A stretch of 64,000 nt of DNA from Rathayibacter oskolensis (GTDB lineage Bacteria; Actinomycetota; Actinomycetes; Actinomycetales; Microbacteriaceae): the NCBI RefSeq assembly GCF_900177245.1, contig NZ_FXBM01000001.1, positions 1,612,001 through 1,676,000 of the forward strand, written 5' to 3'. Both the position numbers and the translations under genes were made by a program. Shown one piece after another: positions 3,133-63,366 of this stretch; position 1 is the stretch's first letter; every line of letters begins with the position of its first letter. A model generated the notes under the pieces. The model did not search any database. It had not been told where the DNA came from and saw only the letters and a program-made list of their open reading frames with translations.

Positions 3133-3201
3133 CGCCCGGGGCACCTCCCGCTCGTCGAACCGCGGTCAGCTCGCGAGGATCGGCCGATCCGGCGAGCCGG
3201 A

Positions 3202-3219
3202 CGGGCTTCCGCGAGCCCG
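3202..3219. terminator. Weak hairpin between convergent genes
   Basis: CGGGCT and AGCCCG form a 6-bp stem with a 6-base loop in the gap between the SURF1 stop and the ABC-F stop. There is no T-run, so a terminator role is only suggested by position. Confidence 0.3.
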
Positions 3220-3234
3220 GAACAGGCAGTACAG

Positions 3235-4833
3235 CTAGGCGAGCGTGATCAGGTCGAGGTAGTCGGCGGTCCAGTGGTCCTCGGTGCCCTCGGGCATGAT
3301 CAGCACCCGCTCGGGGTTGAGCGCCTCGACCGCGCCCTCGTCGTGACTGACCAGCACGACCGCGCCCTCGTAGTGCGCGAGCGCATCCAGGATCTCGTCG
3401 CGGCTGGCAGGGTCGAGGTTGTTCGTCGGCTCGTCGAGCAGCAGCACGTTCGCCCCCGAGACGACGATCATCGCCAGCGCGAGGCGGGTCTTCTCGCCAC
3501 CCGACAGCACGCCGGCTGGCTTGTGGGAGTCGTCGCCCGTGAAGAGGAACGAGCCCAGCACCCGGCGCGCCTCGGTCTCGGTGAGGTTAGGGCTCGCCGA
3601 CACCATGTTCTCGAGCACCGAGCGCTTGACGTCGATCGTCTCGTGCTCCTGTGCGTAGTAGCCGATCCGGAGCCCGTGGCCGGCCTCGATCGAGCCGGTG
3701 TCGGGAGCGTCCACGCCGCCGAGGATGCGCAGCAGCGTGGTCTTGCCCGCACCGTTCAGCCCGAGGATCACCACCTTCGACCCGCGGTCGATGGCGAGAT
3801 CGACCGCCGTGAAGATCTCGAGCGAGCCGTAGCTCTTCGAGAGGTTCTCGGCCTGCAGCGGCGTGCGGCCGCACGGCATGGGCGTCGGGAAGCGGAGCTT
3901 GGCGACGCGGTCGACCGCGCGCACCTCCTCGAGCCCGCTGAGCATCCGCTCGGCGCGGGCGACCATCTGGTGGGCCGCGGCGGCCTTGGAGGCCTTGGCG
4001 CCGAAGCGGGCCGCCTGCAGCTGGAGGGCGCCCGCCTTCTTCTCGACGTTGACGCGCTCCTTCTTGCGGCGCTCCTCGTCGGCGGCGCGCTGGCGCTGGT
4101 AGTTCTTCCAATTCATGTTGTAGACGTCGATGACCTGGCGGTTGGCGTCGAGGTAGAAGACGCGGTTCACCGTCTCGCCGACGAGCTCGATGTCGTGGCT
4201 GATGACGATGAAGCCGCCGCGGTAGCCCTTCAGGAACTCGCGGAGCCAGACCACGGAATCGGCGTCGAGGTGGTTGGTCGGCTCGTCGAGGATGAGCGTG
4301 CTGGCGTCGGAGAAGAGGATGCGCGCGAGCTCGATGCGTCGGCGCTGACCTCCGGAGAGCGTCTTCAGCGGCTGGTCGAGGATGCGGTCGGGGAGGTTGA
4401 GGTTGCTCGCGATCGACGCCGCCTCGGCCTCGGCCGCGTAGCCGCCGAGCGAGAGGAAGCGATCGGTGAGGTTGCCGTACTTCTTCATCCCCGCCTCGCT
4501 CTCGGCGGGGTCGGCGCTCGACATCGCGACGGTCGCCTCCTGCATGCCGAGGACCAGCTGACCGAGACCGCGGGCGTCGAGGATGCGCGTGCGCGCGAGC
4601 TCCTCGGGATCGCCGGAGCGCGGGTCCTGCGGGAGGTAGCCGATCTCGCCGCCGCGGTCGACGGTTCCCTTCGCCGCGATCAGGTCACCCGCGAGCACCT
4701 TGGTGAGCGTCGTCTTCCCGGCTCCGTTGCGGCCGACGAGGCCGACCTTGTCGCCGTCGCCGACCCGGAAGGAGACGTTCTCCATCAGGAGTCGGGCGCC
4801 GACTCGGAGTTCGAGGTCGTGCACGCTGAGCAC
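3235..4833 (-). CDS. ABC-F family ATPase (EttA/Uup-like)
   Basis: A soluble tandem ATP-binding cassette protein without membrane domains. Cassette 1 has Walker A GRNGAGKTT, signature LSGGQRRRIEL and Walker B LILDEPTNHLD. Cassette 2 has GLNGAGKTT, LSGGEKTRLAL and LLLDEPTNNLD. A Lys/Arg-rich linker (NWKNYQRQRAADEERRKKE) separates them. ABC-F proteins act on the ribosome; the exact role of this actinobacterial subgroup is not established. I chose GTG at 4833 (532 residues) because homologues begin LSVHDLELRV. A frame-extending TTG at 4887 lacks a ribosome site and adds unconserved sequence. It is transcribed divergently from bioY. Confidence 0.85.
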   Translation of the reverse strand: MLSVHDLELRVGARLLMENVSFRVGDGDKVGLVGRNGAGKTTLTKVLAGDLIAAKGTVDRGGEIGYLPQDPRSGDPEELARTRILDARGLGQLVLGMQEATVAMSSADPAESEAGMKKYGNLTDRFLSLGGYAAEAEAASIASNLNLPDRILDQPLKTLSGGQRRRIELARILFSDASTLILDEPTNHLDADSVVWLREFLKGYRGGFIVISHDIELVGETVNRVFYLDANRQVIDVYNMNWKNYQRQRAADEERRKKERVNVEKKAGALQLQAARFGAKASKAAAAHQMVARAERMLSGLEEVRAVDRVAKLRFPTPMPCGRTPLQAENLSKSYGSLEIFTAVDLAIDRGSKVVILGLNGAGKTTLLRILGGVDAPDTGSIEAGHGLRIGYYAQEHETIDVKRSVLENMVSASPNLTETEARRVLGSFLFTGDDSHKPAGVLSGGEKTRLALAMIVVSGANVLLLDEPTNNLDPASRDEILDALAHYEGAVVLVSHDEGAVEALNPERVLIMPEGTEDHWTADYLDLITLA

Positions 4834-21876: not shown

Positions 21877-21977
21877 GGGACGGGAGGGGTGGCCTCGTCA
21901 CAGCGCCATCCCGCACCGCTGCGCGGTGCCCGCCAGACCCGAGCCAGGCGCTGCGACGAGGCCACCCCTCCCGTCCC
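21877..21977. repeat. 101-bp element with 31-bp inverted arms
   Basis: The arms at 21877-21907 and 21947-21977 are complementary at 30 of 31 positions (core GGGAGGGGTGGCCTCGTC). The 39-base centre contains a further small hairpin, GCACCG/CGGTGC at 21913-21929. The element is much longer than the local terminators, and no T-run follows. Confidence 0.85.
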
Positions 21978-22053: not shown

Positions 22054-22173
22054 CCTGCTGATCGAGTAGCCCTCGCAGAGGGAGGATGGAGATCCCCCCC
22101 ACCGCCAGCACGGCCGCCTCCACACCGCCCCCCTGATGCGGGTGGGGCTCGCCGGGGCTACTCGACCAGCAGG
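22054..22173. repeat. Pair of inverted 18-mers (GATCGAGTAGCC type)
   Basis: The word at 22054-22071 contains GATCGAGTAGCC. Its complement at 22156-22173 contains GGCTACTCGACC, and the two match at 17 of 18 positions. From memory, GCTACTCGACCAGC-like words are dispersed intergenic repeats in Microbacteriaceae. An additional crossing inverted pair, GCGGCCGTG at 22039-22047 and 22109-22117, is present. Confidence 0.65.
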
Positions 22174-22225
22174 CAGGCTGCGGAACGTCTCCTGAAGGTC
22201 AGTCTGCAGATCGCCACTCGGGATG

Positions 22226-22318
22226 AGGCGAACCGGCGATTCGCGTGACAGCGAATCGACGTAGCCGGACGGAGGACGCTCTGCGGAATCCGACCACCCC
22301 CAGAAGCCGACCGCGCCA
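22226..22318. repeat. Structured dispersed repeat, copy A (tpiA side)
   Basis: 93 nt that align without gaps to 61568-61660 at roughly three quarters identity. It begins AGGCGAAC, contains the perfect hairpin CGATTCGC/GCGAATCG (22237-22258, 6-base loop) and ends GCCGACCGCGC. The hairpin differs from the pyk copies by a paired T-A to A-T swap. Similarity may extend some 30 bases further upstream. Confidence 0.8.
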
Positions 22319-22387
22319 TGCCGCGCGGGGAGCGGCATGGATACAGCACAGCCCGACTGCGCCACGCCGCGCGGGGAGCGGCGTGGA
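22313..22387. repeat. Two tandem 29-nt hairpin units
   Basis: Units at 22313-22341 and 22359-22387 match at 27 of 29 positions. Each folds into an 8-bp stem: CCATGCCG/CGGCATGG in the first, CCACGCCG/CGGCGTGG in the second. The two differences are on opposite sides of the stem and keep the pairing. Confidence 0.85.
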
Positions 22388-22426
22388 CGACGAAAGGGCG
22401 GGCCCGACGGGCCCGCCCTTTCGTCG
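22388..22426. terminator. Terminator downstream of tpiA
   Basis: Perfect 17-bp stem starting CGACGAAAGGGCGGGCC with a 5-base loop, seven bases past the tpiA stop. On the plus strand the hairpin ends in CCCTTT, so it could equally end a transcript coming from the repeat region. Confidence 0.85.
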
Positions 22427-22433
22427 CAGGAAC

Positions 22434-23252
22434 TCAGACGCCCACGTGATTGCGGAACCGGCAGATCGCCGCGAACTCCTCGACCTGGAGGCTGGCGCCT
22501 CCGACGAGGGCGCCGTCGACGTCGGGTTCGCGCATGAAGCCGGCGATGTTGCCCGACTTCACCGAGCCGCCGTAGAGGATGCGGGTCTTCGCCGCGGTGT
22601 CGGCTCCGAGGACCTCGGAGACGACGTCGCGAAGCGCCTTGCAGACCTGCTGCGCCTGGTCGGGCGTCGCGGCCTGTCCGGAGCCGATCGCCCAGACGGG
22701 CTCGTAGGCGACCACGAGGTCGGCGTCCGAGGGAAGGCCGGTGAGAGCCTCTTTCAGCTGGCCGACGGGAACGGCCGAGGGGCCGTGCTTCTCGAGGTCC
22801 TCGGCGGTCTCACCGACGCAGATGATCGGTGCGACTCCGTGCTTGACCGCCGCGGCCGACTTCGCCGCGATGTCCGCATCCGTCTCGCCGTGGAGCGTGC
22901 GACGCTCCGAGTGGCCGACGATCACGTAGTCGCAGTCGAGCTGCTTCAGGAACTGACCCGAGATCTCGCCCGTGTAGGCCCCGCTGTCGAACTTCGACAG
23001 GTCCTGCGCGCCGTACTTGAGCGGCAGCTTGTCGGAGTCGACGAGGATCTGCACCGGCCGGAGGTCGGTGAAGGGCGGGAACACCGCGACCTCGACGCCG
23101 TCGAAGTCGTGGTTCGCGTCCTTGAGGCTCCATGCGAGCTTCTGGACGAAGGCGATGGCCTGGAGGTGGTCCAGGTTCATCTTCCAGTTGCCGGCGATCA
23201 GCGGCGTCCGCTCGAGCGAGGAGGGGACGCCTCCCGTGCTGTCTACTGCCAT
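22434..23252 (-). CDS. tpiA: Triose-phosphate isomerase
   Basis: A 272-residue TIM-barrel enzyme interconverting dihydroxyacetone phosphate and glyceraldehyde-3-phosphate. Catalytic residues are visible: K24 in GNWKMN, H114 in IVGHSERR and E184 in [12 protein letters not shown]. The phosphate loop [11 protein letters not shown] follows. The ATG at 23252 lies ten bases inside pgk, giving an N-terminal extension of about 13 residues ([13 protein letters not shown]) before the conserved start of the fold; a shorter start is not available in frame. Third gene of gap-pgk-tpiA. Confidence 0.94.
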
Positions 23253-44133: not shown

Positions 44134-44577
44134 GTGACCGATCCCGAGCCCCGCGACACCGTCTGGAGCCGCCCGCCCGCGCTCGATCTGGTCGCCTCGA
44201 TAGGCCGCGGCGGAGGCGAGCTCGCCGACACCATGGGCATCGTCTGGCACGAGCTCACCCCCGAGCACTCCGTCGCCTCGATGCCCGTCGAAGGCAACCG
44301 TCAGCCGTTCGGCATCCTGCACGGAGGCGCGCACGTGGTGCTCGCGGAGTCGATGGGCTCGATCGCCGCGAACGTCCACGCCGGCGAGGGCCGGATCGCG
44401 ATGGGCATCGAGCTGAACGCGAGTCACAGCCGCTCGACCCGCTCGGGCTTCGTCATCGGCACCTGCGACGCGATCCACCTGGGCTCGACCCTCGTCACCC
44501 ACGAGATCGTGATCCGAGACGAGGAGGGGCGCCGCCTCTCGACGGTCCGCATCACGAACATCATCCGGAGCCGCTGA
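44134..44577 (+). CDS. Hotdog-fold thioesterase (PaaI/YbgC-like)
   Basis: A 147-residue single-domain hotdog protein. The family helix FGILHGGAHVVLAESMGSIAA carries the HGG motif typical of PaaI-type acyl-CoA thioesterases; the catalytic acid is probably the Glu in LAESMGS. Relatives hydrolyse small aromatic or aliphatic acyl-CoA, 1,4-dihydroxy-2-naphthoyl-CoA among them, so the substrate is open. GTG start at 44134 with AAGGAG six bases upstream. Single gene followed by a minisatellite. Confidence 0.85.
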   Translation: MTDPEPRDTVWSRPPALDLVASIGRGGGELADTMGIVWHELTPEHSVASMPVEGNRQPFGILHGGAHVVLAESMGSIAANVHAGEGRIAMGIELNASHSRSTRSGFVIGTCDAIHLGSTLVTHEIVIRDEEGRRLSTVRITNIIRSR

Positions 44578-44700
44578 CCGCGGCGCTCCCCGCCCGCCGC
44601 GGCGCAGTCGCGGCGCCATCGGACGCGGCGGTCCCCGCCCGCCGCGGCGCAGTCGCGGCGCCATCGGACGCGGCGGTGCCCGCCCGCCGCGGCGCAGTCG
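44578..44700. repeat. 45-bp tandem repeat (minisatellite)
   Basis: The 20-base core CGCCCGCCGCGGCGCAGTCG recurs at 44591, 44636 and 44681, an exact period of 45. The two full spacers are nearly identical (one G/C difference near the end). It starts at the thioesterase stop and has at least two and a half units. It is not translated on any strand with support. Confidence 0.9.
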
Positions 44701-44899
44701 GCTGTGCGAGGTGGTTGCGGTGAGTGGAGCGGGTCGCGAACGGCTACGGGAGAACGCTGACACGCGTTCTCCCGGTTCGCCTCGTGGAACTCGGCTGGTG
44801 TGACGGCGCACGCTCGGATTCGGATGGATCGTCGGCGACAGTGATTTCTTGAGTGCGCAAGCCCGGGACGGGGTGTCGGGGGCGACCTAGGCTCGGGAC
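44701..44899. other. Upstream region of the PdxH-like gene
   Basis: About 200 bases after the minisatellite. Apart from the promoter box next to the following GTG and a modest repeat of GAGAACGC/GCGTTCTC (about 44750-44772) that can form a hairpin, I see nothing in it. Confidence 0.4.
44888..44893 (+). promoter_or_regulatory. -10 box for the PdxH-like gene (leaderless pattern)
   Basis: TAGGCT, six bases (CGGGAC) before the GTG at 44900. Confidence 0.5.
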
Positions 44900-61409: not shown

Positions 61410-61567
61410 GAATCGATCCTCACCCGGGAGATCCTCCCTCACTCCACCCGGAAGCACTCCGTACCCGCCGCTCGGCCCCGGGTGCAGCTGTTGAGCCGCC
61501 CCCCACGGCCTCGCAGCGCAGCTGCCGACCCGAAGAGGTCGATCGGCAGACCAGCCGACCACCTCTC

Positions 61568-61660
61568 AGGCGAACGGGTGAATCGCGTCCCAGCGATTCG
61601 ACCTAGCCGAACGCAGGACGCCCTCTGCAGCGCAACCACCCGGGGATGCCGACCGCGCGA
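61568..61660. repeat. Structured dispersed repeat, copy B1 (pyk side)
   Basis: Same 93-nt element as at 22226-22318. Its hairpin at 61579-61600 is TGAATCGC/GCGATTCG: seven Watson-Crick pairs plus a T-G wobble. Relative to the tpiA copy, one T-A pair is swapped for A-T. Confidence 0.8.
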
Positions 61661-61755
61661 CGGGCGACGAGCGCAGCGAGGAGCCGCCCCCCACGGCCTC
61701 GCAGCGCAGCTGCCGACCCGAAGAGGTCGATCGGCAGACCAGCCGACCACCTCTC

Positions 61756-61847
61756 AGGCGAACGGGTGAATCGCGTCCCAGCGATTCGACCTAGCCGAAC
61801 GCAGGACGCCCTCTGCAGCGCAACCACCCGGGGAGCCGACCGCGCGA
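61756..61847. repeat. Structured dispersed repeat, copy B2 (pyk side)
   Basis: Second pyk-side copy, one base shorter. It is followed by an 8-bp stem CGACGGGC/GCCCGTCG (61845-61877) and then the terminator, paralleling the hairpins that follow the tpiA copy. Confidence 0.8.
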
Positions 61848-61880
61848 CGGGCGACGAGCGCAGCGAGGAGCCCGTCGACA

Positions 61881-61912
61881 GAGGGCCCGGCCGCTGTGCG
61901 GCCGGGCCCTTT
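61881..61912. terminator. Terminator between the repeats and pyk
   Basis: Perfect 13-bp stem AGGGCCCGGCCGC with its complement and a 3-base loop, then TTT on the plus strand. It lies eight bases past the pyk stop and can also end a plus-strand transcript of the repeats. Confidence 0.85.
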
Positions 61913-61920
61913 GCAGGAAC

Positions 61921-63366
61921 TCAGTGGTCCCAGTTCTCCACGGGCTCGACCGAGGTGGAGGAGCCGACGACGTGCACGCGCATGTCGTTCGTGGTGCCGG
62001 CGCGTCCGGGAGGGGATCCGGAGACGACGACGACGGTCTCGCCGGGCTCGGCGAGGCCCTCGCGGAGGAGCACCTCGTCGACCTGCGCGAACATCGCGTC
62101 GGTGTGGTTCACGCGCGGCGTCACGAAGGACTGCACGCCCCAGTTGAGCGCCATGCGGCGGCGGACCGCCGGCTCGGGCGTGAATCCGATGATCGGGATG
62201 CCGTGGCGCAGGCGCGTCATGCGGCGGACGGAGTCGCCCGACTCGGTGAACACGCAGAGGAACTTGGCCTCGACGAACTCGGCGACCTCGGCGGCGGCGA
62301 GCGTGACCGAGCCGCCCTGGGTGCGCGGCTTGCTGCCGAGCGGGGGGATCCGCTCGAGGCCGTGCTCCTCGGTCGACTCGACGATGCGGGCCATGGTCTG
62401 GACGGTGACGACCGGCCAGGCTCCGACGCTGGTCTCGCCCGAGAGCATGACCGCGTCGGCTCCGTCGAGGATCGCGTTCGCGACGTCGGAGGCCTCGGCG
62501 CGGGTGGGGCGCGGGCTCTCGATCATCGACTCGAGCATCTGGGTCGCGACGATGACGGGCTTGGCCCAGCGGCGGGCGAGCTCGACGGCGCGCTTCTGCA
62601 CGATCGGGACGGCCTCGAGGGGCAGCTCGACGCCGAGGTCACCGCGGGCGACCATGATGCCGTCGAAGACGTCGATGATCTCCTGCAGGTTGTCGACGGC
62701 CTGCGGCTTCTCGATCTTGGCGATGACGGGTGCCTTGCGGCCCTCCTCCGCCATGATCTCGTGCACGCGCACGATGTCGCTCGCGTTGCGCACGAAGGAG
62801 AGCGCGATGATGTCGGCGCCGAGGCGGATGCCCCAGCGGAGGTCGTCCTCGTCCTTCTGCGAGAGCGCGGGGACGTTGACGGCGACTCCGGGCAGGTTGA
62901 TGCCCTTGTTGTTCGAGATGTTGCCGGGGACGACGCACTCGGTGATCACGCGGGGACCCTCGACGGCGGTGACGCGGACCGCGACCTTGCCGTCGTCGAT
63001 GAGGAGCATGTCGCCCGGGTTGACGTCGTCGGGCAGGCCCTTGAACGTGGTGCCCGAGAGCTCCTTGGTGCCCAGGACGTCCTCGGTGGTGATGGTGAAG
63101 ACGTCGCCCTCGTGGAGGGGGTAGGGGCCGCCCTCGAACTTGCCGAGGCGGATCTTGGGACCCTGGAGGTCGACCAGGATCGCGACGGCGCGTCCGGCGT
63201 CGTCGGCCGCCTGGCGCACGGTGCGGTAGACGGCCTCGTGGACGTCGTAGCTGCCGTGGCTGAGATTCATGCGGGCCACGTCCACGCCGGCGTCGATGAT
63301 CGCACGAATGGTCTCGTACGACGACGTTGCCGGGCCGAGGGTGGCGACGATTTTCGCTCGTCTCAT
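61921..63366 (-). CDS. pyk: Pyruvate kinase
   Basis: A 481-residue glycolytic enzyme making pyruvate and ATP from phosphoenolpyruvate. It opens MRRAKIVATLGPATSS; RMNLSHGSYDVH, the catalytic-lysine block APVIAKIEKPQAVDNLQEI, and DGIMVARGDLGVELPLE are intact. VATQMLESMIESPRPTRAEASDVANAI and the C-terminal allosteric domain follow. ATG 63366 has GGAG about ten bases upstream. Single-gene unit, closed by the repeat-flanked terminator; gltD follows the pyk start on the same strand. Confidence 0.96.
   Translation of the reverse strand: MRRAKIVATLGPATSSYETIRAIIDAGVDVARMNLSHGSYDVHEAVYRTVRQAADDAGRAVAILVDLQGPKIRLGKFEGGPYPLHEGDVFTITTEDVLGTKELSGTTFKGLPDDVNPGDMLLIDDGKVAVRVTAVEGPRVITECVVPGNISNNKGINLPGVAVNVPALSQKDEDDLRWGIRLGADIIALSFVRNASDIVRVHEIMAEEGRKAPVIAKIEKPQAVDNLQEIIDVFDGIMVARGDLGVELPLEAVPIVQKRAVELARRWAKPVIVATQMLESMIESPRPTRAEASDVANAILDGADAVMLSGETSVGAWPVVTVQTMARIVESTEEHGLERIPPLGSKPRTQGGSVTLAAAEVAEFVEAKFLCVFTESGDSVRRMTRLRHGIPIIGFTPEPAVRRRMALNWGVQSFVTPRVNHTDAMFAQVDEVLLREGLAEPGETVVVVSGSPPGRAGTTNDMRVHVVGSSTSVEPVENWDH

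Follow-up and report, generated by a model that had tools for sequence, protein, structure and literature searches.

What is the 93-nt stretch that lies beside tpiA in this 64,000-nt piece of DNA (the window, the whole stretch analysed) and recurs beside pyk with changes in its hairpin that keep pairing? The window's TpiA and Pyk are 97-98% identical to those of members of Rathayibacter, which we take to be a genus of Actinobacteria. Aligned without gaps, 22226-22318 and 61568-61660 agree at 71 of 93 positions, as the initial annotation had counted. A further copy claimed at 61756-61847 is recovered by BLAST (76.9%, 91 columns) but does not align ungapped over its full length (61/92), and relative to the other pyk stretch it carries an indel just past an exact 154-nt duplicate. 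The stem changes described there, T-A at 22240/22255 to A-T and C-G at 22237/22258 to T-G in the pyk copies, are present, and each of these copies has a 6-nt loop. Local alignment of the tpiA and pyk regions scores 81, compared with at most 42 for the best of 200 dinucleotide shuffles, and a hairpin pattern allowing up to 3 mismatches has 3 matches in the window and 0 in 100 shuffles.

A structural model (R2) run with filters off finds four copies in the window at 93-103 bits, the next-best place scoring 21.7 bits; we note that the training set of R2 includes copies 1, 2 and 4, that is, three of these four. The copies and their surroundings are:

22224-22325, + strand: element copy 1 at the tpiA locus, antisense to tpiA (R2 103.2 bits, E 1.1e-19)
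22227-22229 with 22264-22266, + strand: P1 stem of copy 1, spanning 22227-22266 (coordinates and covariation)
22234-22244 with 22251-22261, + strand: P2 stem of copy 1, enclosed by P1 (coordinates and covariation)
22245-22250, + strand: P2 loop of copy 1, GTGACA
22305-22315, + strand: 3' box of copy 1, AGCCGACCGCG, bordering the gene-proximal hairpin
22316-22340, + strand: P3 hairpin of copy 1, CCATGCCGC-GCGGGGA-GCGGCATGG
22351-22386, + strand: second box and P3 hairpin at the tpiA locus, a partial unit (direct repeat D1)
22388-22426, no strand assigned: perfect 19-bp inverted repeat, possible tpiA terminator
22434-23252, - strand: tpiA, triosephosphate isomerase (ORF and Pfam TIM), its 3' end faced by copy 1
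44134-44577, + strand: thioesterase-superfamily (4HBT) gene (gene call, Pfam 4HBT), its 3' end faced by copy 4
44683-44784, - strand: element copy 4, absent from the initial annotation (R2 100.8 bits)
61566-61667, + strand: element copy 2 at the pyk locus (R2 94.1 bits)
61754-61854, + strand: element copy 3 at the pyk locus, tandem duplicate of copy 2 (R2 93.2 bits)
61834-61844, + strand: 3' box of copy 3
61845-61877, + strand: P3 hairpin of copy 3 (CGACGGGC...GCCCGTCG; in relatives CGACGGT...ACCGTCG)
61879-61913, no strand assigned: 16-bp inverted repeat, 94%, possible pyk terminator
61921-63366, - strand: pyk, pyruvate kinase (ORF and Pfam PK), its 3' end faced by copies 2 and 3

Copies 2 and 3 are spaced 188 nt apart and lie within an exact 154-nt tandem repeat (61493-61834) that includes the element and its flank. 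This duplication is probably a recent event; the pyk locus carries one copy in G008, one in G006 and three in G001. The P2 stem of copy 4 (GGGAGAACGC/GCGTTCTCCC) is largely unlike that of the other copies and still pairs, with the form of the loop and the conserved ends unchanged. The strong terminators annotated behind the element hold up as near-perfect inverted repeats (22388-22426 and 61879-61913), but neither has five T in eight positions, our mark of a terminator. The earlier observation is thus confirmed, and the element is more extensive than first described. Elsewhere in the window, two more GCGGCGGGCGGGG-type hairpin repeats (44578-44700) separate the P3 of copy 4 from the 4HBT gene, and a convergent gap holds a weak model match at 3151-3238 on the - strand (17.7 bits, E 0.06), where GAGCTGACCGCG resembles the 3' box; this match is perhaps a decayed copy.

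The unit is about 100 nt long and consists of P1, the P2 hairpin, a conserved linker ending in the box AGCCGACCGCG, and an abutting P3. P1 has 3 bp (GGC/GCC and variants) and is separated by an internal loop from P2, whose 11 positions often pair imperfectly toward the outside and are capped by the loop GTNNCA; the linker consensus is about ACGCANNACGCTCTNCGGAACGCGACCACC. P1 and P2 span 40 nt, and conservation continues to about 90-100 nt: information content, profiled over 101 of the 194 matches whose placement is given below, rises about 2 bases before P1 and fades about 90 nt past its start. A conserved 5' GTAG is absent from 101 aligned copies, and TAG usually stands 3' of the P2 stem, after G or C (pair 7-34 is CG in 86 and GC in 37 of the 147 cores, out of 192 distinct ones, used for pair-type counts). 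P3 is a locus-specific hairpin between the box and the stop codon of the gene; of 145 distinct P3 sequences, 132 form at least 6 Watson-Crick pairs. Among 115 matches at most 130 nt from the gene, P3 identity is 0.73 between orthologues and 0.47 between paralogues, the core giving 0.73 and 0.62. By eye, we saw no U-tract after P3. As to the terminal inverted repeats and target-site duplication of a MITE, inspection by eye showed no terminal inverted repeat common to the copies in alignment A6, and no clean empty site was recognised at the tpiA locus. In one gene group (L139, L203 and L237, the last acetate kinase by Pfam) the box-adjacent hairpin seems to include the stop codon.

The initial annotation had proposed selection on the fold, and alignment A6 (76 diverse copies of 83 listed sequences, 7 having been left out) bears this out. 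Here 91.7% of stem cells are paired compared with 71.8% in shuffles, a level inflated by the choice of rows through the structural model and consensus likeness, both of which favour paired stems; slid controls are 29-40% paired. Stem cells changed on both sides number 179, compared with 57.2 in shuffles. The covariation score of 0.484 (0.148 shuffled) was matched by none of 500 shuffles and the count of further pair types (32 compared with 27.1) by 4 of 500, while the number of pairs with two-sided change (11 compared with 9.5, matched by 66 of 500) is not significant. Mutual information over 183 of 273 matches places P2 pairs in all of the top six positions. When orthologous copies are compared two by two, two-sided changes that preserve pairing number 156, one-sided changes 63, broken pairs 80 and unchanged pairs 1365, these comparisons being non-independent and some changes possibly conversions. 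Between copy 4 and its counterpart in G008 both sides of the stem have changed, G-C to A-T. An extra helix within the linker showed no clear covariation, with weak pairs such as 58-95/96, and the folding of single sequences does not stand out (z -1.1 to -1.7). The stems covary strongly, and it is on covariation that the case for the fold rests; selection on the fold is supported. Since paired mutations preserve the fold, the element probably has some function at gene ends.

All 15 Rathayibacter genomes searched with model R1 carry the element, at 9-71 matches each (up to 150 candidates scored per genome). At the thresholds used, the same model found no match in 195 other genomes of the family, the four positives in the family sample of 199 all being among the 15. 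Likewise, 296 other genomes of the order gave no match, the single positive of 297 being the genus member G001; both of these searches scored 13-16 candidates per genome under strict filters. An R2 search of 40 genomes, a sample that overlaps the 199, was again positive in G001 only. The copies in related genomes that the annotation had made a condition do exist, but inside the genus only, none turning up in the 195 others of the family. A pattern with 19 fixed bases gave 11 matches in genome contigs, four of them with matching flanks and from two Rathayibacter genomes; the other seven (L001, L002, L007-L011) were rejected as looking like chance, their flanks lacking, by eye, the rest of the element. 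BLASTN found no match in plasmid records with both copies as queries, nor in phage records with the pyk copy as the only query. The annotation knew of no named family, and in fact Rfam 15 at the gathering score returns only a tRNA in the window and no family for the element, and titles and abstracts on Rathayibacter and Microbacteriaceae repeats, mostly open-access, hold nothing on it. Permissive Rfam scans, run on the tpiA region and at six loci, yielded sub-threshold matches only. At 19 PhoU 3' ends from outside the genus we saw by eye many ordinary hairpins, several with T-rich tails, and the element is absent from the genomes concerned.

Might this be chance similarity, or merely GC-rich terminator hairpins? 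GC-rich intergenic DNA folds easily, and the sub-threshold Rfam matches in the tpiA region fall on the terminator-like repeat; the pattern's absence from 100 shuffles, model E-values down to 2.0e-30 and the lack of matches in related genera nevertheless refute this explanation, to which we give practically no weight. The element is real: it is genus-wide, conserved in its fold and REP-like in layout.

The element also recurs at the same loci across species. Reciprocal best matching of flanking genes yields 115 groups (one locus can yield two), of which 85 span at least two of the five sequences, and the distances to orthologous gene ends are often equal or near-equal, for example 16 nt in four sequences. 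Adjoining tpiA and pyk, as annotated, is true of the element but is no special feature, since dozens of other genes are flanked as well. By Pfam these are ordinary genes, among them those for acetate kinase, a purH-type bienzyme, ribosomal S14 and S20, nucleoside diphosphate kinase, peptide deformylase, biotin carboxylase, 6-phosphogluconate dehydrogenase and PhoU. Core identity, compared over 115 matches, averages 0.82 between orthologues (133 comparisons) and 0.68 between paralogues of one genome (1580 comparisons). With tandem mates excluded, the nearest relative of a copy is a paralogue in 77 of 103 cases and an orthologue in 26, so that copying between loci also shapes the sequences, against simple vertical descent. 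The window's pyk cores share 0.66-0.68 identity with the pyk copies in three close relatives, and among the copies of these relatives the identity is 0.88-0.98. The upstream flank is 0.79 identical to G008 and 0.45-0.68 to the other two, and P3 0.63-0.89. From these values the pyk core of the window looks replaced. In other pairs of close relatives most cores are 0.88-0.98 identical, L163/L041 (0.78) and L143/L018 (0.56) being lower.

Placement was analysed for 194 matches from the window and four of the 15 genomes (G008, G003, G009 and G005), with gene calls made by codon usage; a further 36 matches located in G007 lie outside this set. Of the 194, 171 are antisense toward a gene 3' end, two of these overlapping a called ORF. 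The matches lie between convergent genes (104), between codirectional genes in antisense (65) or between codirectional genes in sense (23), and never between divergent genes. A match lies a median 39 nt from the end of its antisense gene, and distances of 16-22 nt are frequent. Among gaps of at least 150 nt at the same loci, none of 133 with an element is divergent, compared with 38 of 70 without one, and only two element-free convergent gaps exist because the loci were chosen for having elements. Opposite-strand neighbours less than 2 kb apart (five genomes, all matches on contig C1) are arranged '-+' 21 times and '+-' never; the '-+' pairs follow from the way each element is turned toward the end of its own gene. 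Same-strand neighbours are spaced 115-137 nt apart in 42 of 57 cases. The element thus sits as REP/BIMEs do: intergenic, near gene 3' ends, in convergent or unidirectional gaps.

Which strand carries the fold may be read in part from the pairs themselves. On the element strand, P2 has 45 G-T and 11 A-C pairs over 48 clusters (p 5e-6; counted in 182 of the 183 copies used for mutual information), 30 and 8 without pair 9-32 (p 5e-4), and 16 and 8 without pairs 9-32 and 10-31 (distinct hairpins, hand sum), so that the bias comes mostly from two pairs and is only suggestive. P3, with 13 G-T and 10 A-C, is strand-symmetric. With the replication origin placed from the gnd locus, on a gene order that we take to be dnaN-gnd-recF, 30 of 71 copies in G008, 18 of 48 in G009 and 21 of 52 in G003 run with the fork (pooled 69 of 171, p 0.014). 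A replication-polarised role was rejected: the mild excess against the fork could follow from the usual leading-strand gene bias. Enrichment in the ter half is significant only in G003 (26/34, p 0.003) and not in G008 (27/44) or G009 (20/35).

Our best reading, held tentatively and at somewhat under even probability, is that of a genus-specific, REP/BIME-like folded element marking the 3' boundary of transcription units, by a mechanism reasoned from sequence. The fold would act once the strand reading toward the gene 3' end is exposed as a single strand; the likeliest form is RNA from read-through or antisense transcription that approaches the gene from outside. The P2 hairpin and linker would then stop, process or mark the incoming RNA, with RNA polymerase, Rho, an RNase or a further binding protein as putative partners. 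P3 would serve either strand, terminating or shielding the mRNA of the gene itself, and the net effect would be to insulate transcription units that converge or abut. A folded RNA, produced when transcription nears a gene from its 3' side, agrees with the placement, the orientation and the P2 strand bias, and a hairpin used on both strands agrees with the symmetry of P3. Against a boundary role, 65 of the 194 matches are antisense to both neighbours and no promoter was found to transcribe them; moreover, tpiA and pyk are each equipped with a strong inverted repeat apart from the element. A bolder form of this proposal, rather doubtful in our judgement, would make the element a new class of RNA-level insulator that lies antisense at dozens of core-gene ends, stops head-on transcription, does without a REP transposase, and stays at the same ends across species with a swappable core.

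The same counts can be read as the history of a non-autonomous, REP- or MITE-like mobile repeat that spread in the ancestor of the genus beside terminator-like hairpins, through an unknown or lost recombinase, and whose copies gene conversion now keeps alike; its effects on the host, if any, would be incidental. We consider this explanation rather unlikely. It would account for 9-71 matches per genome, for the regular same-strand spacing and the exact tandem duplicate in the window, for the replaced look of the window's pyk core, for paralogues being so often nearest relatives, and for a P3 more locus-specific than the core, as if the core abutted resident hairpins. It is less at ease with a sign of little recent spread (85 of the 115 flanking-gene groups are shared by at least two of the five sequences) and with stems that remain paired although the upstream flanks share almost no sequence. 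The Y1 (RAYT-type) transposase, PF01797, is missing as well: it was found in none of the 15 Rathayibacter genomes, several of which are in many contigs, and in 5 of 14 control genomes. A mobile origin may in any case be the history of the very element that serves as a boundary, the two being compatible.

A DNA-level site, like the BIMEs that bind gyrase, IHF or nucleoid proteins, would absorb supercoils between convergent units, with its hairpins as cruciforms. Location between convergent genes, at the ends of ordinary housekeeping genes, suits such a site, as do the strand symmetry of P3 and a second palindrome family 5' of the elements. The excess of G-T over A-C in P2 would be unexpected for a cruciform, though it comes mostly from two pairs, and on balance we hold this explanation to be quite improbable. 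The paralogous small RNAs proposed in the initial annotation fare worse, and we regard them as very unlikely. Here some 50 transcripts with promoters of their own would begin shortly before P2, use the linker as a seed and terminate at P3, and the succession of hairpin, conserved unpaired linker and hairpin does resemble an sRNA; the P2 bias toward the element strand agrees, and a GCAGACCAGCC-like motif lies upstream of 26 of 191 copies (6 in one shuffle). However, no upstream motif is common to most copies, a promoter scan found no sigma-70-like promoter at the tpiA and pyk loci, and P3 lacks a visible U-tract. Upstream of the 64 copies antisense to both neighbours, TANNNT occurs twice, compared with 10 times on the other strand and a dinucleotide-shuffle mean of 10.6, the figure used here (the mononucleotide mean is 19.9).

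A companion palindromic repeat with TACTCGACCAGCA lies at 22056-22068 (- strand) and 22159-22171 (+ strand) in the window, and also at L141, L145 and many other loci. With one mismatch allowed, 143 of 147 nearby matches lie 5' of an element and 157 of 159 outside called genes. With '-+' pairs, tandems and, in 71 of 129 loci, a companion palindrome no more than 800 nt away, the element has the mosaic arrangement of BIMEs, and the TACTCGACCAGCA palindrome and the element together are a BIME-like mosaic. Before secG (Pfam SecG), 21877-21977 holds an inverted repeat with 31-nt arms, 97% complementary and 39 nt apart, of which L105, L106, L108, L109 and L111 show a GC-rich look-alike by eye.

Structured intergenic repeats of similar length are known from other taxa as ERIC, BOX and MIRU, and in REPINs two inverted REPs are paired in one unit. 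How does the present element compare with such systems? The designation REP-like, as first annotated, is apt for position and abundance and not for length, the unit being longer than a REP, nor for the Y1 transposase. Like REP/BIMEs, which are GTAG- or CGTC-tagged palindromes (PMC3733652, PMC2817692), the element is dispersed, intergenic and often near a gene 3' end, with alternative paired stem residues, G-T pairs and mosaic arrays. PMC3733652 describes G-T pairs and alternative paired residues in REP stems, and places REP/BIMEs mainly in convergent and unidirectional gaps, the convergent ones mostly at most 20 bp from the 3' end in two species; the string 'actinobacteri' is absent from its main text. 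In contrast to the 20-40-bp REP palindrome, the element is about 100 nt long with a long conserved linker, and it has neither the 5' GTAG tag nor, in the 15 genomes, a detected Y1 transposase. It further differs from REP/BIMEs in its gene-facing orientation rule and in its phylum, Actinobacteria, which the available portions of PMC3733652 and PMC2817692 do not name. With REPINs (PMC8049555) it shares a sequence population long kept in genomes at intermediate copy number, but REPINs are duplicated by a resident RAYT. Intrinsic terminators (PMC5381666) are likewise gene-3'-end hairpins kept by compensatory changes, whereas the element is one common 100-nt sequence family in which loop and linker are fixed and no U-tract was visible.

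RAYT transposition is a frequent explanation for REP-like repeats, and whether such repeats benefit the host is an old open question. No Y1 transposase is detectable alongside the present element, which occupies the same gene ends from species to species, keeps its pairing by compensatory change and follows a clear orientation rule; these features make the role of such repeats at transcript ends directly testable. In fact, presence at tpiA in 10 and at pyk in 11 of the 15 Rathayibacter genomes, in addition to the window, provides natural pairs of species with and without the element at one gene.
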